Below, piece after piece: positions 10,115 through 38,943 of a stretch of 64,000 bases of DNA (within the stretch, counting starts at the first letter, position 1; each line of letters opens with the position of its first letter). A program made the translations under genes and the position numbers. Source of the DNA: Mesostigma viride (Eukaryota > Streptophyta > Mesostigmatophyceae > Mesostigmatales > Mesostigmataceae); the NCBI GenBank assembly GCA_009746045.1, contig RPFO01000132.1, forward strand, positions 889,090 to 953,089. Reading direction: 5' to 3'. The notes beneath the pieces were generated by a model that searched no databases, had not been told where the DNA came from, and was given only the letters and a program-made list of their open reading frames with translations.

Positions 10115-10300
10115 CCTGGAATCACCATCTCACGAGCACAGCATCAGAATCACCATCTCACGATCAAATCTCCTGTTGTCGCGTACTCGTGCCAAACTCC
10201 CTGCACTGACAGTAGCCCACGACCTCGTTGGCCCTCATGAGGTATGGCTGCATGGGTGATCGATGGGCCACATGTTAGCCTTACCCCACTAGTGCTGCCC
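10115..10300. other. Spacer, possible 3' LTR start of MT1
   Basis: This lies just after the MT1 polypurine tract on the minus strand, where a 3' LTR would begin (TGGGCAGCACTAG). I could not find a second copy of it in the window, so no LTR can be confirmed. A short duplication, GAATCACCATCTCACGA, occurs twice at about 10111-10165. Confidence 0.35.
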
Positions 10301-10320
10301 ACTTTTCTCCCCCCCCTCGC
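10301..10320 (-). promoter_or_regulatory. Polypurine tract of MT1
   Basis: On the minus strand the purine run GCGAGGGGGGGGAGAAAAG directly follows the pol stop codon (10320-10322). A similar tract (AGCGAGGGGGGGAA) ends MT2 at 18461-18478. Confidence 0.7.
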
Positions 10321-12699
10321 TACCAAGTCCTTTGCTGGGTAGCGAGCAACAAAGTGGCAGTAGCTGCTTGAATCGCATGGGTGGTGAACCCCGCAGCAAT
10401 GCACACAGGGCAAAACCAGGAACCCTCAGCCGGTACCTGAGACAGAGGGGGTTGAAGGCAGTGAAGATGCCAGCCGCAGTTGCAGTGATCACACAGCAAC
10501 ATGACCTCAGGCTGGTCGACCCGGTGACAAATTTGACACTGCGCATCGCGGATGCGCCTAGCGGTGTGCGGCTGGATGCTCCGTGCCAGGTGGGGCATGC
10601 CAGAAGCAAGGAGACAGGTTCGACACATTGTCGGTGGTCTTACTACCATCCGCACCTTCGATCGAAGAGTACTACCATCCTCGAGGACGGCCACCCCCGA
10701 AGGCTTAATCTCCACAATGCGAAGGATGGTGGGCCCGGCCGTGACGTCCAGCGTGTGTTGGGGTTGAGTCCGCAGAAACACATACTGGCCGGGGTGGAAC
10801 TGCAGCCGCCTGGCCATATACTTGCCACCCCGTCGCTGGGCGTACCGCAGTGTGTCGCGGTGCTGCGCGATCAACAGATTGTTCATCGCGATGGGCATCA
10901 CCTTCTTAAATGTGGCGGCGCGCGCCACAACCTCCCGCAGCCACTCATTGGCGTCATCCCATTGAATCGGCTGGGGGTGAGCTTCCTGCACCTCAGAGGG
11001 CAACAATGGTGCCCGACCAAAGAGCAGAAAATAGGGGGAGAACTGGGCGAGGGATTCTTGTGGGCTCATCCGGTAGCCCATGGCGATCCAGGGGAGTTCC
11101 CTATCCCAGGTGGCCACACGTGCTGCTTGCAACGCCCATTTGCGCAGCGCCTGTTTGACTGTCTGAACCAAACGCTCAGCCAGTCCATTGGCCTGAGGGT
11201 GCTCCCGCGACGTGTGCCGATGATCGATGGAGCAGGAATCCAATAGCTCTTGGAATTCCCCACGAAATTCCCCGCCTTGGTCTGAAACCACCTCTGCCGG
11301 TGCCCCATACTGAGCAATAACATCCAGGAAGTAGGTGGCTGTGGTGGCGGCGTGCTTGTCGGGTAGGGGAATCAGTTCCAGCCACTTGCTGAACGATTCC
11401 ACACACACCATGACGTAACGGTTGCCGGAAGTGCTGAGCTCAAAGGGCCCACACAAGTCGACGTGCCACCGGTAGAACAAGCCCCGGATGGGCAAGCTCA
11501 TGAGCTCCTTGTCATGATGGTCCAGGTTGAAACGCGCTTTCGCGCGAGCACACTCAGCACAACTGGCTACCTGCCGTGCTATGGCATGCTTCATGCCTGC
11601 CCACCAATAGACCCCACGCACCATGGCACCTGTGCGGTTTGCACCCATGTGCCCGAACCGCTCATGGTAATGTGCAACGAGGGCAGCACGCTTGTCAGGG
11701 GGCGGCACGACCAGCTTGCGGCGCCCCACAAGCTTGTAGACCTGGTTGCCCTCCCAGGTATAATTCACAGCCCGGCGCCCCACGCGCTCTTGCTCGGCTT
11801 GCCTCTGCGTCGGTGTCCAGTCAGCAGGGGCTGGAGAGGCAGGCAAACCCTGCACCCGCTCGAGAACCCTCCCATCCAGCCACACGTCCCCAGCGCAGCA
11901 CTCCACCGCAATGGCGTGACTATCGGCAGCATGCAGCACCACACAGCCCATGCTCGCCGGATCCACCGGCTGCGCAAGCATGTCCTCAGCCAAAGGAAGA
12001 AATATCACGCCCTGGGATGGCGTGAAAGCCGCTGGCCGTACGGGATTGGCGTAGCACGCAAACTCCGCCACGGCATCACTGTAGGAAAGCCATCGCGACT
12101 CGGAATCGCATGGCCCGGCTGCGTTGACAAAGACGACTGAGCCCTGTGGTCCCTCCGCGCCCTGCGCTCGCGCCCCCGTCCGGTCCTCTGACGTTGCCAA
12201 AGCATAGCGTGATAAGACATCGGCGTTGGAATGGTCCACCCCAGCGCGGTGTACAATGGTCATGTTATATTCTTGAATAATCATGGCCCAGCGCGCCAGC
12301 TTGCCTGTCAGATTAGCACTTGTCATCAACCACTGCAGTGGCTGATGGTCGGTGACCAGCATGAACTGACGCCCGAACAAGTATGGCCGAAAATGTTTGA
12401 TGGCCCACACCACGGCCAGCAGAGCCTCGCCCTCATACGATGAGTACACGGCCTCAGCCGTGTTGTTGCTCCTGCTGGCATACGCCACCACATGTTCCTT
12501 GCCATGCACGTCCTTCTGTGCCAACACAGCACCAAGTCCAACCCTGGACCAATCCGTGTATAGCACAAATGGCTGGGCATAGTCGGGCTGACGGAGTATC
12601 GGCGCTGAGGTGAGCTCTGCCTTGATGGTCTCAATGGCGCGTTGCTGCGCCGGACCCCATGCCCAGACTGCACCTTTCTTCAACAGCTCCGTCAGTGGC
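10320..12699 (-). CDS. MT1 pol, second part: RNase H, integrase, PHD finger
   Basis: The frame is open from the transposon junction to a stop at 10320. RNase H has YTDWSRVGLG, YEGEALLAVVWA, VTDHQPLQWL and DHSNADVLSR. Integrase has a zinc-binding HERFGHMG...CAEC module (about 11690-11540) and the catalytic triad in WHVDLCGPF, SDQGGEF and NGLAERL. The C-terminus is a PHD finger (about 10545-10395) with all eight ligands of the C4HC3 pattern: CQIC, CDHC, the H of NCGWH, LHC and FCPVC. PHD fingers usually read histone H3 tails, so here it may steer integration, a role chromodomains play in other Gypsy elements. The preceding part of the same frame lies at 14603-16977. Confidence 0.92.
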
Positions 12700-12703
12700 T
12701 TAA

Positions 12704-14602
12704 GGGGAGGGTCCCATGGAAATGTATCAAAACTGAAGCCCCCTAATAACTACAGAAATGCAACTGACAACCACTGAATGATGTTTGGGGACCATAAACA
12801 TGATGTTTGGGCATGCATACCACCACTTGTTGGGGGTACTAACCCCAGCCATACACCGGCTATGAGCTAAAAATAGAAAAAAACGCTGTCCGGGGCACAT
12901 CTTGCCCAGAACAGTGGGAGAACCAGCTGCATGAAAAAAGTAATACCCATATAAAAATGTCATGGGACATGGTTTCTACCTAATTGGATCAACAAAATCA
13001 GCACATCCCTTTGAGTTATTAATTTTTGGGCCAAAAATACGCTTTTTTAGGCGGGGCGTTCCCATACACACTCATAACACATCAATTAGGCCTAAAAAGT
13101 ATTAGTCAAATTCTGTCATGACCATAGAAGGCACTGTCAAAGTTTGGTGGCATTCTGAGCTCAGCTGTAGCAGTTATTAATTTTGGCAGTTGGCCACCTG
13201 TGCAGACGCTAAGGAAGGCATTAGTGAGTATTAAGGCACACTAACACTTCCTATGCCATCCAAAAGGCTCCTGACCATGCCCAATTCGACCACAATGTAC
13301 AAGGAGGTGGCTGGGCATGTCATGTGCCCTTGCCTTACCTCGACACGGGCAACCTGTTGCGCGTGTGCACAACAATGAGGCAGGTAGCTCTACTACATGC
13401 CTAGCCGACACTTCTAAAGCATATTCCAGGTTCATGGTGTGGGCATCATCCCCAAACCAAGCTCAAACACACCCTAGAAAGCCATATCCACTAATTGCCC
13501 TACAAGGGTAACAACAGACAGTCCACAGAGAAAGCAGATTTATCATACATGCTGATTGCCAAGGCTTCTCACCATGGTTACCTTGCCTTGCTAGCATATG
13601 AATTAGGGCTCTCCCATTTTAGCGGGAGAAAGGCCAACAAGACAACGATAACCCCTACCTACGTGCAGTTCCACCCATGCAGTATGCCCCTCAGAAAAAC
13701 CACTGCCACCTTTCTTTCCAGCGCAATTGTTTGCCAAGAAACAAACTCAAGCTTGTGAGCCTCTAGCCACAATGAAGCCTCTGCTAAGAAAGGCCGCGTC
13801 AATATTCACACAAAACTGAGTGCTATTAGCAATCTCCTTCCAAGAAACCACTCAGCAAATCCCTGACAACTTGACGATATGCCACGGTCACGCTTCGACA
13901 CGTCCCAGCCATGCAACGTACATAAAAACCACTGAAAGGTGCCAGGAATCTGGCGATGCGCAGCACGGAATGGCATTATACCTGGCGCTAACTGCACGGA
14001 AAAAAGCCGAAAACTTGCGTTGATAACCCATAAAGGAAGCGAAACATTAATAGGGTCACGTTGATCACACGACCGTACCATTACCGGAATTGTCCTTCGC
14101 CCAGCGGCGCAAGAAAGAACAACCTTCCATGGAATAATAAGACGCGCATCCCGCGAGCCTGGAGAGTGTCTTACCGATCATGACGGAAATCTTGCCGAAA
14201 CCCAGCAAATTTTTTAAAGCTTTACCAATAACAATTTAAACGCATCCTTGACGCTAGGTAAAGCCCATAAAACCTGACAATCACCGCCGCCAGCGTGCAT
14301 TCTAATTTATTCCTCTCGACGAAAACATCAGATTGGACCCCCGTGGCGATGGTCATCAATAAAATCATCGACACTGCAAAAAACGCGAACTCCGCTACGT
14401 AGCAGTATCATTTACTCATCGTCTTTAAGATTCGCTCAGTCTCTCTGCATTCCGGGAGCTATCTTTTTCTACTCTGCCTGAAAGCACGTCGCCATGGCCA
14501 GCTCCGGTAGGGGTGCGCGCCCCGTGCACCACTTTTTCACGGTACGGACGGGTATACCGCGAATTTTTCGGCGCCAAAAATATTCGCGCCGGGACCGTCC
14601 CC
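12704..14602. mobile_element. Non-autonomous piggyBac-like element
   Basis: A 1,899-bp insertion is flanked by TTAA on both sides (12700-12703 and 14603-14606). Its short inverted ends are GGGGAGGGTCCC at the left and, read inward on the other strand, GGGGACGGTCCC at the right. A TTAA duplication is the hallmark of piggyBac-type transposition. No transposase frame is visible. Removing the element plus one TTAA takes out 1,903 bp, which brings the two MT1 pol frames into register, as expected for a clean insertion. Confidence 0.88.
14559..14587. repeat. Near-perfect palindrome at the piggyBac-like end
   Basis: A 29-bp near-palindrome centred on GGCGCC with arms GCGAATTTTT and AAAAATATTCGC sits 15 bp inside the right end. 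It could be a subterminal transposase site; that role is inference. Confidence 0.6.
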
Positions 14603-16977
14603 TTAACCTTGGTGCTGAAGTTGGGGATATAACCTCGGTAATACCCCGCCAGCCCCAGGTAAGCCCGCACACCCGCCACATCCGTGGGCGTTGCCGCGTT
14701 GACGATCGCTTCCACCTTGGACGCTTGTGGAGTTCTGCCGCCAGGAATGATCTGGTGTCCGAGGAAGTCGAGGCTCCGCTGCGCAAACCGACACTTCTCG
14801 GGATGCAGCTTTAGGTTGGCTCGCGCCAGTGCCATGCGCACCTGCTCAAGGTGCTGGAGGTGTTGCTCAAATGTCTCACCGAAGATGATCACATCATCAA
14901 TGTAACACGCAGCGAATGGCATGCCATTCAACACTTGATCCATGGCACGCTGAAAGATGGCACTCGCATTCCTATGCCCGAAAGGCATGCTGACCCACTC
15001 ATAGAGTCGGTGGCCCCCCCAGAACGCGAGCTTGCGTTGGTCACCCTCCGCCACTTGGATTTGGTGAAACCCACTGCGGAGGTCTAGGGATGAGATGAAC
15101 TGCACGCGTGGCGATATCCGGTCAAGCACATCTTCCACTCGCGGCATGGGGTACGTATACCTGTCCATCGGGGTGTGTGCGTTGAGTTGCCGCAGGTCCG
15201 TCGCCATGCGCATCCCAGTCCATTCACCTGTCACCGCATCCTTCTTGGGCGCCACAACGGTCGCGGCCGCATAGTTGGATGTGGATGACCGAATGATGCC
15301 AGCAGCCTCCAGCTCCTCGCATTGTTGCTGCACAAACTCCAGCTCAGCTTGACTCAGCCGGTGTTGTCGGCGAAACAGTGGCTGATCGGTGTCCAGCGGG
15401 ACCCGCATCTGCCCACCATTGTAGCATCCCAGCTCTTGACTGCTGAATGCAAACGCGTTGCGCGCACCTTCCAGCCACTTGAGCAGCCTCGCGCGTTGCT
15501 CAGCTGTGAGGTGCTCACAGACGCTCCATTGATGGTTTGCTGCCGGGTCGCTTGCGCTCGAGACATTGTGCACAGCCACCGTGGGACCGCGCACGGCCGC
15601 CGACTGAAACAGCATGTATGCCGCCGCTCCCGGCGTAATGCCTCGCTCTCCCACCTGCTGTTGTGCCTTCGCCACGAGGAACTGAAAGGCCGGAGCCGCC
15701 GAGAACACACAGCTGGTGAGGAGCGCAGTCATGAGGATGACTGACCATACCTGGCGCCAGGTGTAGGACCACCCTTGGCCCCTGCCGCCTGCACGCTCCG
15801 CCTTAGGCACACCAGCCGGCGCAGCACCGGTGGGTGGAGAAGTGTCACTCTGCGCCTGTGCAGTCACAGCATGGACGGGGAGTGCAACCCGCTGCACCCT
15901 CCGCACACCTTGCGCTGCTAGCAAGGTGTACCCCACCTGCCAGGCTGACATGGCCTGGCCAATGAGCGACCATCGCTCCACCTCCAGGAGCCCTGGGGCG
16001 GCGGATGCACCTTCAGCAAAGCCCATGCTTAGTTCACGAAACCCCGTGGGTGGCTGAACCAAGAGGCCTGTGGCACGCTCCCACACAAGCCCCTTGCCCC
16101 GATCACGATAAGCCTGGGACCCTTGGTAACTGACAAGGGTGGGCAGTGCTCGCATGGGGGCGCCTGCCTTGTTGACGAGCGCGTAGGGTGCCTGATCATC
16201 GTGCTCCACATACTGCGCCCTGAGTTGACTGGGCAACACGACATCGACCGGTGGCAGCTCAATGTGGCTAGCGACATGCTGCATCACCGCCTGCGTAGAA
16301 CCTTGGCCAGCGATGTTGGTCCAGAACGCGCGCAGCCGATGGGTATTCCCTCCCAGCCCGGCATTGTCCGACACCACGGGTTCCCCCCAAATACCCACAA
16401 TGGTGCCCCAATCCTCCCGAACAGTGGGGCTGGGACTGTCCACCGCCCCTACGTTTTCAAATAAGTAGGCGGGTGGCACCTGCTGCAGCTGCTGGAGCTC
16501 GCCCACAATGCGCAGCATGTCCCAAAATAGGCCGCTCCTGCTGTCGGCAAGGCCCCGGCCATGCCCAGCCTGGCTCATGCCTTGGCACTCCCAGCCAGCA
16601 ATGACCAACCCTACCTCGCCATGTTGTGAGATGAGGCGGCGCAGCTGCTGCTGCCCAAGGAAGCGCACGTCATGAGTGCCCTCGCCGAAGACATCAGCCC
16701 AGGCGGATGGAGGAAATTGTGCTGGGTATGCTTGCGACAAGATAGCGCAGTGGTGCAAATATGCCGCCCTGGCTGTGAGCGATGCCTCCACCGCAATGAG
16801 CTTGCTGCATACCCCCCCGCTGCTCAGGAAACCGGCTATGCCGCCACCCATACCTGCAAACAGCTCCAGCACGACGGTGGCACGCCCGAAGTCCGGGATG
16901 CGTTCCAGCACCTCTGCGCTATAAAGCCGGGGTACGGCGTGATGGCACCCGGCTGGCGCCGCTTCCCCCCAGCACCC
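14603..16977 (-). CDS. MT1 pol, first part: C5 cytosine DNA methyltransferase fused to RT
   Basis: The frame reads on from just after the TAA at 16978-16980. Methyltransferase motifs appear in order: I, LELFAGMGGG (AdoMet binding, about 16870); IV, GWECQGMSQAG with the catalytic Cys; VI, FENVGAV; VIII, THRLRAFW; IX, FRELSMGF; X, RWSLIGQAMSAWQ. Motif IV has Glu where Pro is usual. A hydrophobic stretch (VILMTALLTSCVFSAAP) follows, then Gypsy RT with RQHRLSQAELEFV, MRMATDLRQLN, FISSLDLRSGFHQI, the catalytic CYIDDVIIF, and FLGHQIIPGG. The frame is cut at AYLGLAGYYRGYIPNFSTKVK by the piggyBac-like insertion. The product should methylate cytosines in DNA, presumably on the element or its targets; activity is untested. 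Confidence 0.93.
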
Positions 16978-17740
16978 TTAATTGGGCAGTGCCTGACATG
17001 CCGCCATCACCCGTGCGCGCACATCGCGCAGGCGTGGCAGGGGCGCAACCTGGGCAAGCCAACTTTGCCTCTGCGCATCCCGCGCTGGCAACGCCGCAGG
17101 CAGCACACACCGGTGCCTATCGCGCGCGCGCTTGTCGCTAGCCGCTTGCGCCATGTGCACCGCTTGCGCGTCCGGCCACACGCCCCCCCCCCAGTTCTCA
17201 GCCGCATCCCCTGGCTCCACCTCTATGCTGGCGGGCGACACCACTGCAGCCACACACGCGTCTAGCGACACCACCCCCTGCGGGTTAGGCTCCGGGTCGC
17301 TGCTGCACTGAATGGGAAGAAGCGCCTTTTGCTTCCCCTCCCCCTGCCAATCACGGCGGTAGGTCGCAACCTCCAGCCAAGGGTCAATTATGAGCCCGAG
17401 GCGATACATGACGTCCATCCCGATAAGGGCTGCATACCCACACCTGTCGACCACCAAGGCCGGCACAGCCACGCAGGCCATCCGCTTTGGGTCCGTGGGG
17501 TTGAGGATGACGTTGATCAGCATGGAAGTCATTGCATCGGGTCGCGCCGCTGGCCCTTTCCATCCCTCTGTCGCGTCTGCGTACCACAATCTCCGGCGCC
17601 ACCATGGCGGCTGGCCATGCTCAGCTTTGGTAAAACCCAAATGAGCTGAGCTGCCGTGCCTGCCTTAACTGCACAGTGCCCGGTGTGGTGGGCGAGGACC
17701 TGTTCCATGGCATTTCTGTCCCTGGGAATGTCCGGCATTT
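16978..17740 (-). pseudogene. MT1 aspartic protease remnant
   Basis: The region from EGWKGPAARPD through ALIGMDVMYRLGL matches the C-terminal half of the retropepsin-like domain of MT2 (AGWQGPAAKPF, DVLVGMEVMF). Upstream, in another frame, KAGTAAQ aligns with MT2 KLDSGAQ, so the catalytic Asp is lost. The frame ends at TAA 16978-16980 and the methyltransferase continues in the same frame right after it. This suggests one polyprotein interrupted by a single stop (context AAT TAA GGG). Confidence 0.65.
17573..17712. repeat. Copy A of a direct repeat of about 138 bp
   Basis: The segment beginning TCGCGTCTGCGTACCACAAT is repeated in the same orientation at 18326-18462 with about 98% identity. 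Copy A lies within the MT1 protease remnant. Confidence 0.85.
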
Positions 17741-18325
17741 AGTCACGACCACCAAGGTCGAAGCATAATATCCTTCAAACAATCTGCACGCTCACACCTT
17801 GCGTGTGAGTGGCCCAGCAAATATTGCTTCTGATCTTTCCTTTCTAGAAGAAATCCCTTTGTAGGGCTGCCAGCGATTTCGCATTCATTCCAGCGATCTG
17901 GCTCCGCACCGCAAATTGTCCTTTTCCATTTTCTGTCCAGTCCTCATAACGTTGACCCGCTATTCTACACCACAAAGACACCTGGCCTGTCAATAGCCTC
18001 GGCGCTGTTGAAGTCCAGCAGTCCAGCTCCAGCTCCAGCTCCAGCTCCAGCTCCAGCTGTCCACTAACTCGCGTATGATCCTCTCGACGCTGCGCACTTG
18101 TGCTGCCGTCCGTTCAAGTCCGTGCCGGTGCGCGCCCAGTTGTGCCTGGCCCGGCGCGCGCGCACGTACACTTTCGTCCGCTCTTATGCTGCAAGTGCTA
18201 GTGTCCCCCCCCCGGTCACTAGCCTTTGTCGAAAATGCGCAGAAAACAAATTCCTTGCGCACGTCACCGGTCTTGTGCATAGCGGGCGCCCGGATGACAT
18301 AGCTCGCGTCCGTGACAGCTGTCGC
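17713..18325. other. Spacer between the direct repeats
   Basis: No gene is seen. It contains a short (CCAGCT)n microsatellite at 18016-18060. The spacer separates MT1 from MT2 and may be LTR or leader sequence of this family, but no partner copy is available to test that. Confidence 0.4.
18016..18060. repeat. (CCAGCT)n microsatellite
   Basis: Seven or so tandem CCAGCT-type hexamers within the spacer between MT1 and MT2. Confidence 0.9.
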
Positions 18326-18462
18326 GTCTGCGTACCACAATCTCCGGCGCCACCATGGCGGCTGGCCATGCTCAGCTTTGGTAAAAGCCAAATGAGCTGA
18401 GCTGCCGTGCCTGCCTTAACTGCACAGTGCCCGGTGTGGTGGGCGAGGACCTGTCCCATGAT
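18326..18462. repeat. Copy B of the direct repeat of about 138 bp
   Basis: This copy directly abuts the MT2 polypurine tract, exactly where a 3' LTR should start on the minus strand. It could be a true LTR start or a duplicated protease fragment. Confidence 0.7.
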
Positions 18463-18539
18463 TCCCCCCCTCGCTGGCTCTCATGGCTCCTCACATGGCC
18501 AGCGACCGTGCCAACACCACAGCAGCTAAGGAAATGGTG

Positions 18540-19890
18540 ACGCTACTGGTTGCGAAACGGGCAGCGACACAAACTGGGCAAAACCACTGGCCTGCTGGCA
18601 CGGTGGTGAGCGCTGGCTGCAAGCAGTGCATGTGCCACCCACAATTACAGCGATCACACAGCAACATGGTATCCCCCTGGCTGTACGCGATTGCAAACCT
18701 GACACTGTGCGTCCTTGACCCGCCTGGCCGTGTGCGGGGCGAGGTCAGGCAATAAGTTGGGCAACGAACACGGACTGAGGTTGCTTACGTTATCGGTGGT
18801 GCGACTGCCGTCGACGCCCTCCAAAATGGCGACCCCAGATGGCTTGATGGCGACGATCCGCAAGATGGTCGGCCCCGCAGTCACGTCAAGAGTGTCGGTC
18901 AGCTGCGTGCGGAGAAATACGAACTGCCCCGGACGAAAATGCAGCTGACGGGCCATGTAAGCGCCCCCCCGGCGCTGAGCGTAGCGCAGGGTATCTCGGT
19001 GCTGGGCGATGAACAAGTTGTTCATGGCGATGGGCATAACCTTGCGGAAAGTAGCCGCCCGTGCGGTCACCTCAGCCAGAAACTGACTGGCGTTGTCAAA
19101 CGCCATAGGGGTGGGGTGTGCACTCTGCGCCTCCGTGGGGAGCAAGGGTGCGCGCCCAAACAACAGGAAATACGGGGAGAAACAGGCGAGCGACTCCTGG
19201 GGTGACATTCGGTAACCCATGGCTATCCACGCCAGTTCACGATCCCACATAGTGAATGATGCTGACTGCAGGCTCCACTTGCGCAAAGCCTGCTTGACAG
19301 TCTGCACCAATCTCTCAGCCAAACCATTGGCCTGAGGATGCTCCGAGAAGTGCGACGGTGATCAATGAGACATGCATCCAACAATTCCTGAAATTCCCCC
19401 GAAACTCCCCGCCCTGGTCGGTGACCACCTCCGCGGGGGCGCCAAACCTGGCGATGATGTCGGCGAAGTGCTTGGCGGTGGTGGCGGCCTGCTTGTCAGC
19501 AATGGGGATGAGCTCGACCCACTTGCTAAAACTTTCGACACACACCATGACATACTTGTGGCCATCTGCACTTTCATCAAAGGGCCCACACAGGTCTACG
19601 TGCCAGCGGTAGAAGAGCCCTCTGATGGGTAGGCTCATCAATTCTTTCGCATCGTGGTCCACATTGAACCTGGCCTTCACCCGGGCACACTGCGCGCAGC
19701 TAGCGACGACCTGCGCGACTGTGGCACGCATGCCGTTCCACCAATAAGAGGCGCGCACTAGCGCCAAAGTGCGGTTACCACCCAGGTGGCCATACCGCTC
19801 ATGGCTTGCTGGACGATGGCGACCCGCTTGTGAGGCGGCGGCACCACCACTTTGCGCTTGCCGATCATTTTGTGGAGGACCCCGGCATCC
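18540..19890 (-). pseudogene. MT2 integrase and PHD finger, frameshifted
   Basis: Integrase is seen as a zinc-binding module (SHERYGHLGGNRT...CAQC), WHVDLCGPFDE, TDQGGEFRG and, after a frameshift near 19320, AERLVQTVKQALRKW. The PHD finger starts RRVKDAQCQVC (about 18700). One frameshift at the GGGGGAT run near 18672 puts its remaining ligands (CDRC, NCGWHMHC, WFCPVC) in another frame, down to about 18570. The fold is preserved in sequence, so the shift is recent or an assembly indel. Confidence 0.8.
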
Positions 19891-22560
19891 CACGAGTAGG
19901 TGACCGCCCTATGTTGCACCCTATTCAACTCAGCGTCACGCTGGGCTGAGGACCAATCAACAGGGGTTGGGGTGAGAGCTATCCCTTGGACCTGCTCCAA
20001 CACACGCCCATCGAGCCACACATCACCCATGTTGCATTCCACTGTGAGATGGCCAACCAACACCACCTGGAGTGCTAGGTATCGTGCCAAGGTATTGTCA
20101 ATGTCAAAGGACGGAGAATTACCTTCCTCCAACGCGAGGAGGCCAGCGGCAGGGGTGAAGGGAGAAGGGTGAACTGCATTGCAGCTTGCCGCAAAGTCTG
20201 CGACTGTATACTCGACTGCGCGCCAGTCTGCCTCGGCGTCGGCGTCAGCGAAGCCTGCAGCATTAACAAAAACCACAGACCCAGGCGAGCTCTCGGCCCC
20301 TAGGGCCCGCGCACCAGTGTTGTCAACAGTGGTTGGTAGAGCATACCTGGACAGGACGTCCGCGTTGGAGTGATCCACACCTGGCCGATGGACGATTGTC
20401 AGGTGGTACTCCTGAATGATCATTGCCCACCGGGCCAGCTTACCCGTGAGTTTGTCGCTGGTCATCAACCACAATAAGGGCTGGTGATCAGTGACAAGTG
20501 TGAACACCCGCCCAAAGAGATATGGCCTGAAGTGCTTGATGGCCCACACAACGGCTAACGCTTCCCCCTCGTAGGAAGAGTACCGACTCTCGGCAGAGTT
20601 GTTACTCCGACTAGCGTACGCGATAACATGCTCGCGCCCCGCATCGTCCTTTTGTGCTAGCACAGCCCCTAGGCCTACCTTGGACCAATCGGTGTAAAGA
20701 ATGAAGGGCAGAGCATAGTCGGGGGCGCGTAGGATAGGAGCGGCAGTCAGTTCCTGTTTGATGGTATCGATGGCTCGCTGCTGAGCCGGACCCCACGCCC
20801 AGACATTGCCCTTCTTCAACAACTCAGTCAGGGGTTTGACTTTGGTGCTGAAATTCTGAATATATCCTCGATAATAGCCAGCTAGCCCGAGATACGCGCG
20901 CACCCCCGAGATGTCGATGGGCACTGCGGCGTTGCTGATGGCTTCCACTTTGGCTGCCTCAGGGGTCCGGCCACCTGGTACAATCTGATGACCAAGAAAC
21001 CCTATGGTCTGTTGGGCGAACTTGCACTTTTCAGGGTGCAGCCGCAGGTTGGCCTTATCTAGGGCGATCCGAACCTGATCGAGGTGAGCTAAGTGCTGGT
21101 CAAATGTCTCGCTAAAGACAATGACATCGTCTATGTAGCAGGCTGCAAATGGCAACCCTGCCAGCACCTGGTCCATGGCACGTTGGAACACCGCACTAGC
21201 GTTGCGATGTCCGAATGGCATGCGAACCCACTCGTACAGACGGGTCCCACCCCAAAAGGCCAGCTTGCGCTGATCTGCCTCTACGACCTTGATCTGATGG
21301 AAGCCGCTACGCAAATCTAGCGACGACACATACTTGACCTGGGGAGATATTTTATCCAAAACATCATCGACCCGAGGCATGGGGTACCTATCAACAGGAG
21401 TGTGCGCGTTCAGCTGACGCAGGTCAGTGGCCATGCGCATACCTGTCCACTCGCCTGTGATGGTATCCTTCTTGGGTGCGACCACCGTGGCAGCTGCATA
21501 ACTGGAGGATGAAGCGCGGATGATCCCAGCTGCCTCTAGCTCTCGACAGTTAGCATCTACGAATTCCAGCTCAGCCAAGCTCAGCCTATGCTGCCGCCTG
21601 AATAAGGGCTGATCCGTATCTAGTGGGACCCCCATGCAGCCCCCGTTGTAGCACCCTAGTTCTTCACTGCTGAAAGCGAATACTGAGCGTGCAGAATGCA
21701 ACCAGTGCTCCATAGCCTTGCGTTGCGTGGCGGTGAGGTGCTCACCTATGGCCCATATGTGAGAGGCAGCAGGATCTGCGACTGCGGCACTCCTACTGTC
21801 GAGACAAGGCCCCCGGACAGCGGCATCGTGGAAAAGGGAAAATGCGGCTACACCGGGTGTGACGCTCACCTGCTGAATGGCACGGACTGCGCGACCGACC
21901 GATTGCTGCAGGGTGGGCGCTCCAGCGAACACCGTGCTGGACAACAAGGACGTCATGAGGATAACGCTCCATAGTTGAAGCAGCCGCGATCTCCATGGCG
22001 ACCCAGTGCCGCCGGACGCTGTTGGCCGGACACCAGCCGCGTGGGCACTGACAGGCGGTGGCGGTGTGGGGATATCTCCCCCACCCTGGCGCACTTGCAT
22101 TGCGGCCCGCAGAACATACCCAACCTGGAAGGCTGACATGGCTTGCCCAACGAGAGACCACCTAGTGGCCTCTAAAACCCCCTCAGCGGCGGACGCCCCC
22201 ACATGGAACCCCATGCTCACCTCCCGAAACTCAGCGGGCGGCTGCACCAACAAACCCGTACCGGTGTCCCATACCAAACCCTTGCCCCGGTCCCTGTAGG
22301 CCGATGACCCCTGGTAACTAACCAAGGTGGGAAGAGCGCACATAGGCTTACCTACGTGATTGACGGGTGCGTAAGGGTGCCGATCGGCGACATCTACACG
22401 CTGCGTGACCAAATGTGGTGGCAGCGCCACCTCCGCGGGCATGCCGTCGTGCTGTCGTGTGATCGCATCTACCACTGCCTGGATGGTGGTGGTGAGTGCA
22501 AGGTTGGTCCAGAATGCGCGGTACCTGTGGGTGAGCCCGCCCAATCCTGCATTGTCGCAC
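19891..22560 (-). pseudogene. MT2 methyltransferase C-terminus, RT and RNase H
   Basis: One long open frame carries methyltransferase motifs VIII (THRYRAFWTN), IX (FREVSMGF) and X (RWSLVGQAMSAFQ). It continues through a hydrophobic stretch (VILMTSLLSSTVF), RT with CYIDDVIVF and FLGHQIVPGG, and RNase H with YTDWSKVGLG, YEGEALAVVWA, VTDHQPLLWL and DHSNADVLSR. It is listed as a pseudogene because the methyltransferase N-terminus and the integrase end are in other frames, although this central part is intact. Confidence 0.88.
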
Positions 22561-23300
22561 GTGACTGGGCCCCTAAGATGTCCACGATCTGGGCCCAGTC
22601 CTTCCTCACTACCTCGTGAGGGCTGTCGTCGGCCACCACGTTCTCAAAAAGATACGCTAGTGGCTGGTCCTGCAGCTGCTGCAAGAGTCCAACGACTCGA
22701 AGCAGATCCCAAAACAACCCGCTCCTAGGATCCGCAAGCCCGCGTCCTACGCCGGCCTGACTCAACCCTTGACATTCCCAGCCCGCGAGGACGAGGTCTA
22801 TCCTCTTGTGCCGCCTCAAAAGGCCTCGCACATGAACCTCCCCAATAGCACGGATATCCTGAGGGCACTCCCCAAACGGATCTGTCCACGCAGACGGAGG
22901 AACTGAGATGGATACAGGGCAGACAGCTGGGCACAGTGATGCCTATACACTGCCCGAGCGGTAGGAGACGGCTCTACGGCGATCAACGTGTGGCACGTAC
23001 CGCCTGCAGCGAGAAAGCCAGCCAGCCCCCCTCCCATCCCAGCAAACAATTCTAGCAATACAACCCCTTCGGACAAGACCCGCGACTCTGCCACAACATC
23101 GGCACAGAAGTTACCTTCGGTTGTCGCGACAGCCACTTGGACTGCGATTGCCGCGGGAGATGAGAGAGTTGTTGCTGCCGCACCGCGTTGGTGACGTGCT
23201 GACGCAAAAGGGCCTGCCGCGCTTGCGGCTGCTGTCGCGCCGCCCACGTGCTCTGCAATGAGGCCCGTCCCACCAGCGCTGTTGGGATGCACGGCCGATG
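22470..23300 (-). pseudogene. MT2 methyltransferase N-terminal motifs, two frameshifts
   Basis: Motif I (LLELFAGMGGGLAGF) is in one frame (23292-22816). Motifs IV (GWECQGLSQAG) and VI (FENVVADDS) are in the next (22831-22469). The domain then shifts again into the long RT frame near 22540. The catalytic Cys is kept and Glu again precedes it, as in MT1. Confidence 0.85.
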
Positions 23301-23304
23301 CTTA

Positions 23305-24680
23305 TCACGCACAGCCCCCCCAGCTGCCGTGACCTCCCCCATCCGTACCTCCACCACCGCGTCGCGAGCCAGCCTCGACCCGGTTGACCGTCGAGACACG
23401 CACTGCCCCAGTGTCCGAGCTGTAGCAGCTCACCGGGATGCTTGCTTGGCGCATGGCGTCACCGTCTCTGTCAACGATGTACACCGCGCGGCCTTCCCAC
23501 ATGCGTACCTCGAGCCGCATGGGAAACATGACCTCCATGCCGACCAGCACGTCATACGATGACTGCTCGGTCACAAGGGCATTCACAGGGATGCAGGCCA
23601 TGTCGGATGGCCTGAGCGGGTTGAGGATGACCATTACCTGGACCGCAGTCATGGCAAAGGGTTTAGCGGCAGGGCCCTGCCAGCCCGCCACGGACACATG
23701 ACTGTCCCGCAGCCCGCCATTCTCCCTGGTTAGGTTGAGCAACTGGGCCAGCCGAGCACTGATGACGAGTGGCTGGGCCCCGCTGTCCAGTTTCACGACC
23801 AATTCATGGTCAGTACTGTAGACCACGTTGCTCAGGGGCTCCCCGTGCCCCTGCGCCTGAAACGCCATTGCTGGCTCGCCATCCGGATATGAGGTGACAG
23901 TGGGTGCCCTAGGCACTACGCACGCCCGCTGCGCGTTGTCCAAGACACCATGAGCGACATGACCCACGACTACCGAAGCCGATGCAGGGCGATGCCCAAC
24001 AAATGTGGCTGTCTCAGCGTTGTGCAACCTACGGGCGTCCATTGTGTCAGCGTACCGCTGTACCTCTGACGCATGCGACCCGAGCACCTCCACGGCCCGC
24101 TGACCGAACCACTCGACCACTTGCCGGGGAGTGTATGCAGGCGTGTCCACGACCGACGGCATAGGGTATAATGGCAACAACCTGCGCCGCTGCTCTGCCC
24201 CAGCAGGATTGTCGTGTTCCAGGGTGGAGCCGGTCCGAGCGGGAGCCATGCGAAAGGACTGAGGCAGCTGCCCCACAGTCTCACTTGGCTGCCCCACCTG
24301 AAACGACGGCGGTGCACGTGCTTGCTTCCCTCGCGCGCCAACTGCGTGGATGTCCAACGCCATCACGTCGGCTGGCCGCCAGAAGTCCTCGTCCCTGTAT
24401 TGAACCTGCGATCCCCCATCCTCCCTTTCACGTCCCCCCGCCTCGCCCGTCGGCTGAATGATGACCACCCCCGCGTCCACCTTCTTGTCCTCCACGTCCG
24501 CAAAGTGCACCCCCGGCGCTGGGCACTGCCCCGCCAGATGGGTGCGGACCGTTGCCGGGTGTGACTTCTTACACGCCTTGGGACAATCACGTTTGATGTG
24601 CCCATCCTGACCGCACAGGAAGCAGCCCGATTTGCGCGCATCCGTCCTACCCGTCTGTGAGGACGTGCCCCCCCAGCTCG
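23305..24680 (-). pseudogene. MT2 zinc knuckle and aspartic protease
   Basis: A CCHC knuckle, CFLCGQDGHIKRDC, spans about 24630-24585. The retropepsin-like domain has the catalytic KLDSGAQPLVIS (about 23800) and the flap/end region YDVLVGMEVMF. The frame differs from upstream gag by one shift at a C7 run (24668-24674). A stop at 23305 separates it from the methyltransferase. Confidence 0.82.
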
Positions 24681-26057
24681 CGTCGGCGGAGCGGCAGCGT
24701 CCTTGTTGCCGCCAGCGGCGTTACCCTGGGTTGCATCATGCGATGAGGCGTTGCGAGACCCCCCTTGGTTCCTGCTAGCACCGTGGCCGCCTTGCGGGCG
24801 CGCTTGTCTTGTGGCAGACGACTCACCCGACTTGGCCTTGGTCAGCGCGTCGACCTTGGCCTGCAGCTCGGCCACCACCGTGCTTACCGAGATCCGGCCT
24901 TGCGCGTGTCGTCGCATCATGGCCCTGACCTCAATGCACAGTGACCGCAATCGCCACGGCTGGCCGTTGGGCGGCGTGGGCAGCTCCATCTCCTTGGAGC
25001 CTAGCGCTTGCAGCCATTTCTGACACGCCAGCTTTTCGGACCAGTCCTCCACTTCGCCGGCGAACTCCATGAGGCGCTCGTAAGATTGCTCCGGGGTTTC
25101 ACCCTCGGCTATCTTGAAACTGCGCCACTCACGCTCTGCCTTGATGGTCTCCACCGGGTATTCCTGGCGAAGGAGGCCCCACAGTTCCTCGGCAGGGTCG
25201 ACACCATACATGATGTTGTCATAGTCGGGCTGGCCACGCCCGTCGAAGCCGAACCACACGTCCGTGTGACGCGTGTACAGCGAGACCTCTCTCCACTGCT
25301 CCACCAGCCTAGCCACTCGCCTCAGCGTAAGGCCGTGAAAGAAGAAATGCATGTTGTTCATCACAAACTCATGCATTACAGCGCCTTGCGTAGTCATGTA
25401 TTGCAGATCAATCCATGACTTGTACGCGTTGTAGGCCTGCGCCAGCGTGGCCAGATTGCCGGTTGTGGAGAACTTCTCGCGCATGTCCACCCGTGGTAGG
25501 GTGGGCATCTTCGCGCCTTCAGGTATGAGGCGCACCCTTTGCGGGTACTGCACCCCATCGGCATCCTCCGGCGGTCGCTGAGCTGCGCGTCCCTGCGCCA
25601 GCGTGCTTGGGCGTGCTGCCTCCCGTACTCGGAAAGCCAGCGGCGTGGTTATGTCCTCCATGGGCGGAATGCGCCCGATTGGCACACTTGACCACCGTGC
25701 AGTCGACCCGCCGGTCAGCGCCCCACCGCCTCGCCCAAACGGAATTGAGACCCCGCCTGGCAGCATGCGTCCTGGTGCACCCCTGCGTGGGTCCATCGCG
25801 CGCGCCAGCCCTGCCCCGTTCTCCTCGTGCAATCCGTCTCGCGCTTGATCGAAAGGCAGGCGCCTGGGCGCCAGCGTATACTCGCCCCGTGGCTGACCAT
25901 CCGCCTCACCAAGCAAGTCGTGCTGGGTTAGCGACCCAGCCAAAACCCCCGGTTCCATCGGAGCCCTTCCCGCCGCATTACCTGAGGTTGGCGGCTGGTC
26001 CCGCTCCCTCGGCTCCGCGGCAACACCACTTGGGCCCGGCATCGTTGCCTGCCCGTC
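24675..26057 (-). pseudogene. MT2 gag, main part
   Basis: An open frame of about 460 codons encodes a proline-rich start, then a capsid-like helical region (AQAYNAYKSWIDLQY, EELWGLLRQEYPVETIK, EQSYERLMEFAGEVEDW). It ends near STVVAELQAKVDALTKAK and a basic Gly/Ser/Asn-rich tail before the zinc knuckle. The order matches retrotransposon Gag. It joins in frame with 28914-29198 across the nested element. Confidence 0.8.
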
Positions 26058-26619
26058 TGTCAAAATGTAAGACAGGTGGCAGGCTTAAAGATCGAATAAT
26101 GCTTTACTGATTTTATATATTGACTTTGAGTCGGCGTACAAACGGGTAGCCATGACAATTGCAGGGGCAACATTAAGTGGAAAAAACACACTGTCGCAGT
26201 ATCCGTCGATCTGGAAATAATCTACGGTATAAGTTAAAGTGCATCCAGCCGCCACACACAAGTGGGTGGCTTACACCAACACTAAAATGATGCGTCAGAT
26301 CACTAGTATGCAAGTACAAGGACATTGCGCCTCCAGGGCAGCACTTAGTGAACATAGGGTCGGCGCGTAGCGCGGAGCCAGGCAAATTTTGTCAGACGGC
26401 TACAGTACCACTGGCTACAGTACCACTGGTTACAGTACCACTGGTTACAGTACCACTGGGTACAGTACCACTAGGGTACGGATGTCAGCTAGCTAATATA
26501 TTTAGCTAACTAATATATTTAGTAGAATGTAGAAGAAAGTAGTCATATAAGTTCCGGTATACCCGAAACTAGCACACTCAATAAAAAAACTGTCAGGCAT
26601 ATTGGGGCATATCCTGACA
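26058..26619 (-). repeat. 3' LTR of the gag-only element
   Basis: A 562-bp LTR with TG...CA ends. It contains five tandem 15-bp units of the type GGTTACAGTACCACT (26399-26473). Confidence 0.93.
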
Positions 26620-26633
26620 CCCCCCTTGCATAC
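26620..26633 (-). promoter_or_regulatory. Polypurine tract of the gag-only element
   Basis: On the minus strand GCAAGGGGGG lies directly before the 3' LTR start TGTCAGG. Confidence 0.75.
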
Positions 26634-26639
26634 AATGTG

Positions 26640-27138
26640 CCTGTTCCCCCCTTGCTCAGAGAAACCTATAGCTAGTGAGGGTATAGCCGGGTACACTCCC
26701 ATGGCACCCCCCTTACACGGCTATCTGGTTGGAGCTGAGAGGAGACTTGATGACTGTAGCCCCCAGGTGTCCCTGGGAGTGCGCCACAGTGGCTGTCGCT
26801 TGGAGAATGCTGGTGACCCTAGAAAAAACATCCGGTGGCCCCCAGGTGTCCCTGGGAGTGCGCCACAGGAGAAAAGAACACAGGTTGACTGGTTGATGCT
26901 GGTACTGCAGTACTGGTCACTGCTGGCTGCTGGCATGAAGACCTGCACCTGGCACGTCTGGCAGGGTGGGCGACTAGCCGCTAGCAATGCAGGAGGGCCA
27001 GAGGACGGGTTGGGGGGGCTGGCTGCTGTCGCCTGCTGCAGTGCAGGTTGAAAAGCTCCAGGGCCCACGTCTGGTGCTAGCTGGGCCCAGCTGGCTGCTA
27101 CCCCTTGTGCCCTGTCCCGGGGGAGCTGGATAAGGCGT
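26640..27138. other. Non-coding interior of the gag-only element
   Basis: No convincing frame. A 31-bp segment starting GCCCCCAGGTGTCCCTGGG occurs twice, at about 26759 and 26838. Confidence 0.55.
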
Positions 27139-28032
27139 TTAGAAGCAGAAACCGGGGGGGAGGTCGTGGGCCTCGTGGGAGGGCGCCGGTGGGGTGTCGG
27201 TGGTGTGGTGGGCGGCGGGCCCGCCGGTGTTGCCGCGAGTGTTCCGTAGGTGAGGATACTTCCACCAGCAGGTGGGCTCCTGATGAGAGGTGCGACCGCA
27301 GTGAGTGCAGCTGGGCCGCTGGGTCCCGCCATTGTGACCGCCACGCCCCCTGCCACGGCCGGTGCCACGGCCACCGCGTCCAGAGTGGGAGGTATGATAC
27401 ACCCCGGTGGCCTCCGCGGAATCTTTGTTACCGTGCACAAGGTCCCAGGCCTTAAGAAGTGCCGCCTTAGTTTCCTGTAGGGTGATACCGTCCCCAAGGT
27501 TCAATTGGGCAAGGGACGGAAGCAACTCCTCGGTCACGCCGGCGAGCAGATTCTCGGCCAGATCCTCGGGTGCCATTTTGGCGCCGGTGGCAATCAGGTC
27601 GTTATAAGTTAATTCCCCGTCGGTTATATATTGCCGCATTGTAACGCCGGGTTCCAGCTTCATTCGATTTAGCTTGCGGCGTAGTGCTCGCCGGTTGCTC
27701 ATCTGCAGCTTGAGATGCTCATATTCTTCACAGATGCGATGATATGCCACGCTGCCAGTTTTCTGAGTAACACTGTTTGCCACTTTGAGTGCCGGTCCAA
27801 CGAGGCACTGACAAAGGGCCGCAAAAAGAATCAGGTCGCGTTCCTCATTGACCTCGGTGCCAAGCAGGACAGACAGCATCCCGAATGCTGTCACTACGGC
27901 CAGAAAAGGAATCTTGGTGTTATCCCACTTTACTGGGTCGAGGCCGTCGAACTGTGTAATATTTTTGCAGGCCTGTAGAATGTTGAGATCTTTTGTCGCT
28001 TTCGTAGCTGCTGCTGTCGCGGCTGCGGACAT
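27139..28032 (-). CDS. Copia-type Gag of the gag-only element
   Basis: An intact 297-codon frame starts MSAAATAAATKATKDLN, shortly after the 5' LTR and primer-binding site. It has the helical Gag pattern of Copia elements: FDGLDPVKWDNTKIPFLAVV, then VAYHRICEEYEHLKLQMSN, then LLAGVTEELLPSLAQL. A Gly/Arg-rich tract precedes a zinc knuckle, CTHCGRTSHQEPTCWW, whose spacing is close to CX2CX4HX4C. It should form particles that package the element RNA, with RT and integrase supplied in trans. No frameshift is seen, unlike in its neighbours. Confidence 0.88.
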   Translation of the reverse strand: MSAAATAAATKATKDLNILQACKNITQFDGLDPVKWDNTKIPFLAVVTAFGMLSVLLGTEVNEERDLILFAALCQCLVGPALKVANSVTQKTGSVAYHRICEEYEHLKLQMSNRRALRRKLNRMKLEPGVTMRQYITDGELTYNDLIATGAKMAPEDLAENLLAGVTEELLPSLAQLNLGDGITLQETKAALLKAWDLVHGNKDSAEATGVYHTSHSGRGGRGTGRGRGRGGHNGGTQRPSCTHCGRTSHQEPTCWWKYPHLRNTRGNTGGPAAHHTTDTPPAPSHEAHDLPPGFCF

Positions 28033-28331
28033 GATTGTCTCGGCAAGGTTAAAATCTGGTCACAACCGAGTCTCGGCAAGGTGAAAATCTGGAGACAGCC
28101 GAGAAAGCCGGAGACGCTCAATCCGTAATGGTAAAGATTAAGACTAATATGCGACGATGGTTTAGAACAGCAAATACGAGGTAGAGACGATCGTCTAAAT
28201 ACTGGAGTTCTTGAATTTCGATACAGGGAAGCCCGTCTAGGATATGCACGACTGGCATAAAGTGCCGACGTCGGATTCAGGGAGTCAATTTGCCCGATAA
28301 ATCGGACCAGTTTCAGCAATTTAGTAGGCCA

Positions 28332-28346
28332 CCCCGCTCGATACCA
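28332..28346 (-). promoter_or_regulatory. Primer-binding site, initiator tRNA-Met type
   Basis: Directly after the 5' LTR the minus strand reads TGGTATCGAGCGGGG. This resembles the TGGTATC... sites that pair with the 3' end of initiator tRNA-Met in plant Copia elements. Confidence 0.8.
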
Positions 28347-28908
28347 TGTCAAAATGTAAGACAGGTGGCAGGCTTAAAGATCGAATAATGCTTTACTGAT
28401 TTTATATATTGACTTTGAGTCGGCGTACAAACGGGTAGCCATGACAATTGCAGGGGCAACATTAAGTGGAAAAAACACACTGTCGCAGTATCCGTCGATC
28501 TGGAAATAATCTACGGTATAAGTTAAAGTGCATCCAGCCGCCACACACAAGTGGGTGGCTTACACCAACACTAAAATGATGCGTCAGATCACTAGTATGC
28601 AAGTACAAGGACATTGCGCCTCCAGGGCAGCACTTAGTGAACATAGGGTCGGCGCGTAGCGCGGAGCCAGGCAAATTTTGTCAGACGGCTACAGTACCAC
28701 TGGCTACAGTACCACTGGTTACAGTACCACTGGTTACAGTACCACTGGGTACAGTACCACTAGGGTACGGATGTCAGCTAGCTAATATATTTAGCTAACT
28801 AATATATTTAGTAGAATGTAGAAGAAAGTAGTCATATAAGTTCCGGTATACCCGAAACTAGCACACTCAATAAAAAAACTGTCAGGCATATTGGGGCATA
28901 TCCTGACA
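28347..28908 (-). repeat. 5' LTR of the gag-only element
   Basis: A 562-bp LTR that looks identical to the copy at 26058-26619, including the five 15-bp units. Confidence 0.93.
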
Positions 28909-28913
28909 CCGTC

Positions 28914-29198
28914 CCATGGTGTGGACTGCAGATGACGACCCTCTACGGCCACCAATCTGTCATTCACTTCCCGCATCTGCAGCGCCAGTTGCTGCTGCAA
29001 CTGTAGCGACTGTTGCTGCATCTGCGCTTGCATCTGCGCGAACAGCGCCACCATACTCAGCGGCGCTTCTTGGTCGCGACTCTCACCCACTGCGGGTACG
29101 GCGGGAGGAATCCCGCCATTCGACCCCGGAGCGGACGTGTCGGCATCTGCTCTATTTGCATCCGCCATGGCTCGAGTCTGCGCTCGCGTCAGTGGCAT
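28914..29198 (-). pseudogene. MT2 gag, N-terminal part
   Basis: It starts MPLTRAQTRAMADAN at 29198. A Gln-rich coiled-coil follows (ALFAQMQAQMQQQSLQLQQQ). It ends at TPWDG where the gag-only element inserted, and resumes at 26057 in the same frame. A TATAAAG stretch on the minus strand near 29275 could be the MT2 promoter. Confidence 0.75.
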
Positions 29199-29400
29199 GC
29201 ACCAGCTGACCGATGGGCAAAACAAGAACCAACAAGCCTAGGTTTCGCTGAGAAGAAGCAACAACCAAAGGCTTTATAACAGGCGTCAAGGATAACGACT
29301 CGACTAGCCTGCCAGAAAAAGACAAGAGCCAGCAAATTCTGGCTAGTTCTATTTTCTTAAAATCTGTCTCAAGACACTCCTTTACAAACTGTCAGCCCGG
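29199..29400. other. MT2 leader or LTR, border with Copia-C
   Basis: This contains the TATA-like minus-strand motif and no gene. The border with the next element is near 29391-29400 but cannot be fixed, because no partner LTR was found. Confidence 0.4.
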
Positions 29401-30318: not shown

Positions 30319-30332
30319 ATATATATTGGTGC

Positions 30333-30943
30333 TACGACGGGCAGGGTTGCCACCTGCTCATCGATGTCTCCGTGGCTCGGCCGCTTTCCGGTCGCCACAT
30401 CCTCCGGGCGGCTGTGGATGCCGGCGCTGCTGCCGCTGTGGCTGAGCGCGACAAGTTTGCCTCCTACGGCAATGTGGGGCCCCACCGGGTCATCCCCTTT
30501 GTCCTTGAGGAGTTCGGGGCCATGGGCCCCAAGACAGCGGAGTTTTTCCACGAGTGCTGCCAGCGCCGTGAAGACCGCCTCGACCTCGAGGGTCAGACCG
30601 CCCCGTGGTCGGCCCGCACGTGGTCCTCGTATTGGCGGCAGCGCCTGTCACTCGCCCTCACTCGCACCGTGGCTGATGTGTTATTCCGCCGCACCCGGGC
30701 CGACTTTGTCGCGACCCATGCGGTCTAGATCCCTTCCAGGCCTGCATGGTGGGCCGGCAGCGCTGTTGCTGCGTGTAGTTTTGTGATGTATAGTTAGTTG
30801 TACCTTGTGCCGCTGGCGTGATCCTTGGATGTCTGTGTCAGATTACTATTAATTTCTTCAGGGTTATTCTCCCAGTTATCGGGTTTTTCCTTATGTTGCA
30901 TGCCTATCTCACCTCCGTAATCTATCATTCTCAATGAATATAT
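30333..30943 (+). mobile_element. LINE 3' fragment, family 2
   Basis: It is related to but distinct from family 1: GQGCHLLIDVSVARPLSGRH and HRVIPFVLEEFGAMGP, ending TRADFVATHAV at 30728. The 3' tail ends TCTCAATGA and is again followed by ATATATATTGGTG. A closely related copy lies on the minus strand at 39789-40810. Confidence 0.72.
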
Positions 30944-30954
30944 ATTGGTGTTCT

Positions 30955-31082
30955 CCCGTTAGGCGTTTCCATTGGTCTTATCGTAGTATAGAGCTTTGAC
31001 ATGGCTCTGTACATAGGTTTATAGCTGGGCGTTTGCTTTGGTTTGAGTGATTTCACTCTGCTGTAAGTAATTATATTTTTAA
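30955..31082 (+). mobile_element. Short LINE 3' tail, family 1
   Basis: This repeats the last 130 bp or so of the family 1 tail (CTCCCGTTAGGCGTTTCCAT onwards) and ends at the same ATATATATTGGTG target. Confidence 0.75.
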
Positions 31083-34064: not shown

Positions 34065-34400
34065 AGACCAGGCCTTGCTTCAGCTTGGGTGCCCCAGTGG
34101 GCTGCTTGACCAAAGTACCAAGTGGTGACTGGTGCTTACTGGTTGACAGCCGGTCCTTCAGGGTTAGGTACACCCTCCTGGACAGGAGTTGGTGTGGAAT
34201 GTCACTCCTACCAGCTGAGAATCATGCCTGGCCCTCCCCATGGGGTTCAGAAGAGTCGCCAGGACTTAAGTCGACGCCTTTGGCCTCAAACAGTTAGGCC
34301 ATGCAAGGGCAACCCGAATGTTGGTTCTTACAGGTTGCTGTATATATGTTTTCTAGTGCTTGTTTCCAACCTGTTGCTAATAAAGAACCTGGTTGTGTGA

Positions 34401-37762: not shown

Positions 37763-37775
37763 GCTGCTTCAGGGC

Positions 37776-37797
37776 CTCCTTAACTCGAGTTAAGGAG
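37776..37797. repeat. Perfect 22-bp palindrome
   Basis: CTCCTTAA-CTCGAG-TTAAGGAG is a perfect inverted repeat without a spacer. No role is evident. Confidence 0.9.
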
Positions 37798-37799
37798 TG

Positions 37800-38640: not shown

Positions 38641-38679
38641 CATTAAAATTAATTAATTTAATTATTTTATTATGTAAAC

Positions 38680-38900: not shown

Positions 38901-38943
38901 CTACAACAGCTATCTACAAACATCTATCAACAACAACTCTAGC

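Follow-up and report, generated by a model that had tools for sequence, protein, structure and literature searches.

We analysed a 64,000-nt stretch of the genome of the streptophyte alga Mesostigma viride (contig RPFO01000132.1, positions 889,090 to 953,089; hereafter the window), in which an original prediction, made from the DNA letters, had placed at 10301..17740 a Gypsy retrotransposon encoding both a C5 DNA methyltransferase (MTase) and a PHD finger. The element is real and carries both domains, but its extent differs from that predicted. Copy 1, as we call it, spans 10177-17568, is truncated and lacks gag, and 17568-17740 is part of a second element, copy 2 (its units A and B). Copy 1 comprises the following features, where units A and B are repeats at the element ends.

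10177..17568, minus strand: copy 1, a 5'-truncated family-A Ty3/Gypsy element (insertion 12703-14601 excluded), 97.7-98.9% identical to siblings L008, L033 and L034
16981..17568, minus strand: C-terminal part of the protease region, by identity to sibling L033 and gene model P0125
15868..16920, minus strand: MTase domain, Dnmt3-class C5 (Pfam DNA_methylase 3.9e-11)
14749..15249, minus strand: reverse transcriptase (RT), RVT_1 with YIDD (4.9e-28)
12703..14601, no strand assigned: foreign insertion between RT and RNase H, by comparison with siblings
12267..12584, minus strand: RNase H (RT_RNaseH 1.2e-35)
11196..11705, minus strand: integrase, with H2C2 at 11532-11705 (Integrase_H2C2 5.4e-14) and rve core at 11196-11474 (1.6e-12)
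10401..10538, minus strand: PHD finger, C4HC3 (Pfam PHD 2.2e-08)
10177..10308, minus strand: terminal unit A, 96% identical to unit A over 135 positions

The minus-strand open reading frame (ORF) 14428-16977 includes DNA_methylase and RVT_1, and ORF 10323-12749 includes RT_RNaseH, Integrase_H2C2, rve, and PHD; all of these matches exceed the Pfam cut-offs. The YIDD of the RT, the D,D,E of the integrase, and the eight zinc ligands of the PHD finger can each be read in the translation, as predicted. The protease is recognised by its identity to a sibling and to Mesostigma gene models, but ORF 16981-17664, which holds this stretch, has no Pfam match. The domains are spread over three separate frames in the window because of the 1.9-kb foreign insertion, at which the flanking element sequence overlaps by 5 bp and which has short inverted ends (by eye). 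Copy 1 begins mid-protease at 17568, adjoining the end of another element, and the B and A units expected after its terminal unit A are missing. A hydrophobic stretch, VWSVILMTALLTSCVFSAAP, lies between the MTase and RT at ~15690-15750 on the minus strand, and similar stretches occur in copy 2 and in the database protein P0128.

One pol frame in the Mesostigma siblings and its relatives

A search of the 440-Mb M. viride assembly gave 6085 candidate places, 53 of which were scored; all 53 match. At 24 of these places the pol frame is open over 2074 aa, and at six over 1642 aa. Continuity from MTase to PHD was followed by coordinates in two copies out of these 30 frames: in C1613 the 1642-aa frame opens ahead of the MTase (ORF start in L008) and closes beyond the PHD finger (ORF end in L034), and in C1468 the 2074-aa frame reaches from the zinc knuckle (L047) to beyond the PHD finger (L048). 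RNase H, integrase, and PHD share one open frame in nine of the ten siblings with ends fetched, B_C1413 being cut off before the PHD finger. Pfam recognises DNA_methylase (1.8e-10 in L008, 7.1e-11 in L028) and PHD (9.2e-09 in L034, 3.4e-09 in L048) in the siblings as in the window ORFs. The predicted pairing of both domains in one polyprotein is thus borne out by siblings, where a single open frame bounded by the element ends holds them both, but not by the two window copies, whose frames are split or broken. Neither outcome that the prediction named as refuting it, domains missed by HMM searches or placed beyond the element ends in other copies, was observed.

The domain order in sibling pol is (protease)-MTase-RT-RNase H-integrase-PHD, which includes the Ty3/Gypsy order of protease-RT-RNase H-integrase with H2C2 and a DDE core. 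A zinc knuckle lies upstream of the protease, whose Pfam support is sub-threshold. Pol is in the -1 frame relative to the upstream gag(-protease) frame, and the two overlap, stop to stop, by 187 nt in family A and 184 nt in family B. Nine family-B copies differ at 0.00013 per site (24 differences in total among 36 pairs), and the B units within one copy are 99.47-100% alike (7 copies). Judged by this near-identity, both between copies and between the B units of one copy, the family-B and sibling copies are young, and the family is multicopy and recently active. The M. viride genome is reported to contain 5-methylcytosine, with LTR elements accounting for 27.9% of it (PMC6947507).

The MTase is Dnmt3-class, with DNMT3A the best relative by profile and among the best by fold. 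An alignment-based predicted model has a complete MTase fold; a single-sequence fold (pLDDT 31) was set aside and the alignment model used instead. The jgi/Mesvir1 gene models P0124 and P0126 match the copy-1 MTase query with 97% identity over 68% and 98% over 25%, respectively. P0128, a protein carrying the label Prorocentrum lima, aligns to 27% of this MTase with 66% identity and could reflect contamination or transfer. Searches with the MTase gave three pattern matches and no relatives in viral contigs, no match in plasmids, and 35 phage records; among the phage matches listed, all are below 60% identity and cover at most 37% of the query.

The PHD finger has all eight C4HC3 zinc ligands, and its best solved relatives in the PDB are BAZ2B (1e-13) and UHRF1 (2.4e-13). 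In the PHD finger of BPTF, a tryptophan contributes to the cage for trimethylated H3K4. The Mesostigma PHD has a glycine at the place of this tryptophan, so the domain more likely reads histone H3 unmodified at K4. Chromoviruses have a histone-reader chromodomain at the integrase C-terminus and no MTase. The Mesostigma element has a reader module at the same place, but it is a PHD finger; no chromodomain was matched by Pfam at the integrase C-terminus in the frames scanned. Two rows among the RNase H-integrase-PHD matches listed, P0047 and P0067, contain the chromodomain family PF00385.

The RNase H-integrase-PHD query retrieved 665 proteins, the best 120 of which are listed, and the integrase tree was built from 111 rows and midpoint rooted. 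A 41-row clade (support 100/90), mainly green-lineage and metagenomic, holds all ten MTase rows. PHD is present in at least 32 of the 41 rows: 27 of 38 database rows by pattern, P0015 and P0026 by precomputed Pfam, and three Mesostigma rows by Pfam. The remaining nine rows of the clade are P0049, P0062, P0097, P0029, P0038, and P0030-P0033, several of which end before the PHD place. The MTase precedes the RT in Mesostigma, P0039, and P0006, while in P0028 (Chromochloris), P0049, P0062 (Pseudoscourfieldia), P0041, and P0037 it is flanked by RNase H and integrase or sits immediately ahead of the integrase. The MTase label requires five changes on the integrase tree, and at least four of these changes are forced by well-supported branches; P0036 and P0043, scored as lacking the MTase, begin downstream of its place. 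The history of the MTase could thus be a single gain followed by losses or more than one gain.

The pairing itself recurs in P0041, where MTase and PHD are both above the Pfam cut-off. In P0028, PHD is above the cut-off and DNA_methylase just below it (20.6 vs 22 bits), while P0006 and P0037 have PHD by Pfam and a partial MTase by MTase profile A1 only. This profile was built with rows P0037, P0041, and P0028 and without P0006 and P0097. P0028 additionally has a G-patch domain score (5.1e-05) between MTase and integrase. After the PHD finger in P0036, P0041, P0043, and P0044, and after the integrase in P0062, DPFCGTGG-, DCWAGTGS-, or EPSVGTGS-like motifs occur with SPWF/SPWW-like motifs (by eye). 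These C-terminal stretches possibly form a second MTase-like domain; Pfam gave no match to them at 0.01 in P0036, P0041, and P0043, or at 1 in P0062.

Split repeats, copy 2, and other repeats in the window

Element ends were examined in 10 of the 53 siblings (five per family), picked for open frames and mostly on long contigs. Unit B (1128 or 1139 bp) is at the left end in nine of the ten, complete to within one base, and is interrupted in C777. The right end is A-B-A in seven, one of them with a shortened outer A, and A only in two; in one it was not seen. The genomic layout of the copies is B-coding-A-B-A. The outer ends do not carry a pair of identical long terminal repeats and, because B is at the left but A-B-A or A only at the right, the element is a variant with a Gypsy pol and not a canonical LTR element. 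The outer ends read TGTCRC...GCGACA and are flanked in six of the seven copies with both ends readable by 4-bp target duplications (GGCC, CTTG, TACT, AACC, TAGT, and AGCT), within the 4-6 bp of Ty3/Gypsy elements. No tyrosine recombinase was matched in the frames scanned, and there is a DDE integrase instead.

Two features of these repeats bear on replication. The inner boundary between A and B is a palindrome (GCGACAG/CTGTCGC, the slash marking the boundary) in family A, with one base different in family B. The 14 bases after B are fully complementary to a 14-base stretch within B, at 883-896 in family A and 833-846 in family B. A match of this length is reached at none of 4199 other inner positions in either family, and shuffling B gave even a 12-nt complement in only 1 and 0 of 2000 shuffles. 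Both families thus have, within the terminal repeat and in the right orientation, the priming-site complement of Tf1-type elements. In Tf1 itself the sequence at the transcript start is complementary to the priming site over 11 nt, versus 14 nt here, where the repeats are also split. The joint of B and A varies: it has nothing added, +A, +TCCAA, or ~90 nt of filler, or B stops at 588 (copy 2 in the window). The priming site begins with TCCA. The first 100 of the 563 B starts give 34 spacings under 25 kb between neighbours; 18 of these are 9440-9460 and none are 1200-1400.

Copy 2 and its parts are as follows.

17568..29400, minus strand: copy 2, a mosaic element interrupted by 26058-28910; identity to family B ~98% in gag and 68-79% in pol
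22117..23061, minus strand: MTase region, broken frame, by sequence comparison
18558..18703, minus strand: PHD region, frame broken between the first and second ligand pairs, by translation in three frames
18319..18463, minus strand: unit A1 at the 3' end, by unit comparison
17709..18318, minus strand: unit B, stopping at position 588 of 1139, by unit comparison
17568..17709, minus strand: unit A2, the right end, with the copy-1 protease directly after it, by unit and sibling comparison

Copy 2 is ~70% identical to copy 1 in pol and has the same domain set, with broken MTase and PHD frames. Because unit A2 adjoins 17568, and family-A siblings are uninterrupted at the matching place, the protease of copy 1 is the most likely insertion site of copy 2, as judged from one side, neither the left end of copy 2 nor the copy-1 gag being in the window. 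The close match of its gag to family B, set against the lower identity of its pol, suggests recombination between families.

Within the copy-2 gag, 26058-28910 is a Gag-only Copia-like element (Retrotran_gag_2 9.1e-07) with 564-bp direct repeats that are 100% identical. Elsewhere in the window, 30332-40428 consists of ~10 kb between long inverted repeats (arms of 192 and 186 bp, 98-99% complementary, plus further arms) and is probably a DNA transposon. Direct repeats of 300 bp, 100% identical and 10.2 kb apart, at 40811-41110 and 50978-51277 possibly delimit a young LTR element, and a long array of 17-bp tandem units extends from 53748 onward, with 67 overlapping 300-bp copies reported.

Proposed mechanism, alternatives, and related elements

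We propose a transcript that begins within unit B and folds back on itself, its first 14 nt acting as the primer for reverse transcription at the site following B (self-priming of the Tf1 type), which would yield a cDNA with A+B terminal repeats. The cDNA ends may then be joined, and the integrase may cut the palindrome at the A/B boundary rather than the cDNA ends; we suggest these two steps because the B/A joints are variable and the priming site begins with TCCA. The PHD finger at the integrase C-terminus would bind the H3 tail, probably unmodified at K4, and steer integration, while the MTase would act on either the new cDNA or the site of insertion, its methylation letting the copy pass for resident DNA. 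These last two roles are the weakest steps. Taken as a whole, self-priming, end joining, integration from the internal palindrome, PHD steering, and MTase marking form the account we lean slightly towards. Extended to the claim that an algal Gypsy lineage with a Dnmt3-type writer and an H3-tail reader in one polyprotein breaks the LTR rule, priming itself, joining its cDNA ends, inserting from a palindrome inside the repeat through a PHD-steered integrase, and marking each new copy, it is doubtful.

Several observations weigh against this account. The original prediction listed MTase motifs, and the domain is well recognised, but motif IV in the window copy and the Mesostigma siblings is ECQ (Glu-Cys-Gln), not PC, with Glu where DNMT3A and M.HhaI have Pro. 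The MTase score is below the Pfam threshold in P0028, P0049, and P0062 and absent in P0006, P0037, and P0097, all of which rest on profile A1. The ratio dN/dS is 0.19 in the linker, like the 0.20 of the C-terminal part of the MTase, and synonymous change is saturated elsewhere, so the argument for selection on the MTase is modest. CpG decay is inconsistent: 8 of 12 transitions between copy 1 and L008 are at CpG, while 45 family-A pairs, compared over stretches that include diverged or broken parts, show no CpG excess. The sibling B_C998 lacks a target duplication, and none of the 34 spacings represents the isomer B-A-B-coding-A, which random cutting of a joined circle should produce. This spacing bias would be accounted for if the cut fell at the site ~136 bp away from the left end of the cDNA.

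It is possible, if somewhat unlikely, that the MTase does not methylate DNA but has been retained to bind nucleic acids or as a structural component, or has RNA as its substrate, and that the chromatin role belongs to the PHD finger only. ECQ in place of PCQ, which extends from the Mesostigma elements to P0039, P0002, and P0041, is consistent with this, as is the absence of DNA methylation by SymbioLINE-Dnmt in yeast (PMC5890265); however, rows spanning these positions retain the motif IV Cys, the motif VI ENV, and the motif VIII Arg pair, and the MTase fold is complete. Self-restraint has been proposed for elements with DNMT genes (PMC5890265), and MTase and PHD could have been kept for slowing the element, curbing transposition or host damage by self-restraint or by targeting to silent chromatin. 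We regard this as distinctly improbable, as a young family B with 563 B starts is a poor fit to restraint.

The repeats could instead be inherited DIRS-style, from a transcript spanning A-B-A with the outer A copied in each round and no joining of cDNA ends. The repeat order is that of the split direct repeats of DIRS-type elements (PMC8969392), two of the three exact-end family-B joints are alike, and the absence of the B-A-B-coding-A isomer among the B starts listed also fits. However, joints differ among near-identical copies, and the 4-bp duplications and DDE integrase contrast with the tyrosine recombinase and lack of duplications in DIRS, and we can entertain this route only tentatively. 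Capture of a host MTase and PHD gene, or their misassembly, beside a Gypsy element in this window by chance would agree with the broken and nested window copies, but is extremely improbable and is ruled out by the open pol frame at 30 of 53 places and by relatives from other sources with the same architecture.

The closest known system is KnitGypsy-Dnmt3 of the charophyte Klebsormidium nitens, described in 2018, which likewise has a Dnmt3-class domain inside a Gypsy Pol frame and, according to the legend of Fig. 4, DIRS-like repeats with Gypsy domains (PMC5890265). The repeat order is the same here, a likeness that rests on this legend; the main text of that paper contains no occurrence of PHD, a comparison with its description rather than with the K. 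nitens sequence. The PHD finger looks like an unreported addition to a KnitGypsy-Dnmt3-like element. SymbioDIRS-Dnmt3, with DIRS-type repeats, and SymbioLINE-Dnmt are also retrotransposons with cytosine MTases, but have a tyrosine recombinase or LINE machinery and dinoflagellate hosts (PMC5890265). A 2025 survey labels such elements Copia and DIRS, at odds with the Gypsy label (PMC12344493).

PHD fingers are known from other transposons. CR1/L2 LINEs have one in ORF1, where it was suggested to guide integration, with no functional study known to the authors of that work; these elements are non-LTR and lack integrase and MTase (PMC4120745). Ginger1 DNA transposons have a Gypsy-like integrase, with PHD in one listed family (Ginger1-9_HM), but possess an Ulp1 domain and no RT or MTase (PMC2836005). 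Algal transposons with a ParB/N4C-N6A MTase accessory gene also carry a DNA MTase, but are class II, with another MTase type in a separate gene (PMC12477816).

A Gypsy element with Dnmt3 in Pol and DIRS-like repeats (Klebsormidium), and PHD in LINEs and one Ginger family, are thus already known. We found no report of MTase and PHD in one Gypsy Pol in the literature searched, where an earlier mention is possible; a 2011 chapter by Iyer and colleagues on eukaryotic DNA methylation systems is said to treat methylases in eukaryotic transposons. As far as our searches show, this pairing in one Gypsy Pol, and in several algal and metagenomic rows, is new, as are the putative self-priming site, the variable joints, and the 4-bp duplications that flank elements with split-repeat ends.

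Hosts silence such elements by DNA methylation. With an MTase and a histone reader in one element protein, it could be tested directly whether a transposon marks its own DNA or selects chromatin. The split repeats, with their variable joints and 4-bp duplications, provide a concrete alternative to a model in which linear LTR cDNA ends are integrated. With many young, near-identical copies, both the chromatin and the integration questions may be tested in one alga.
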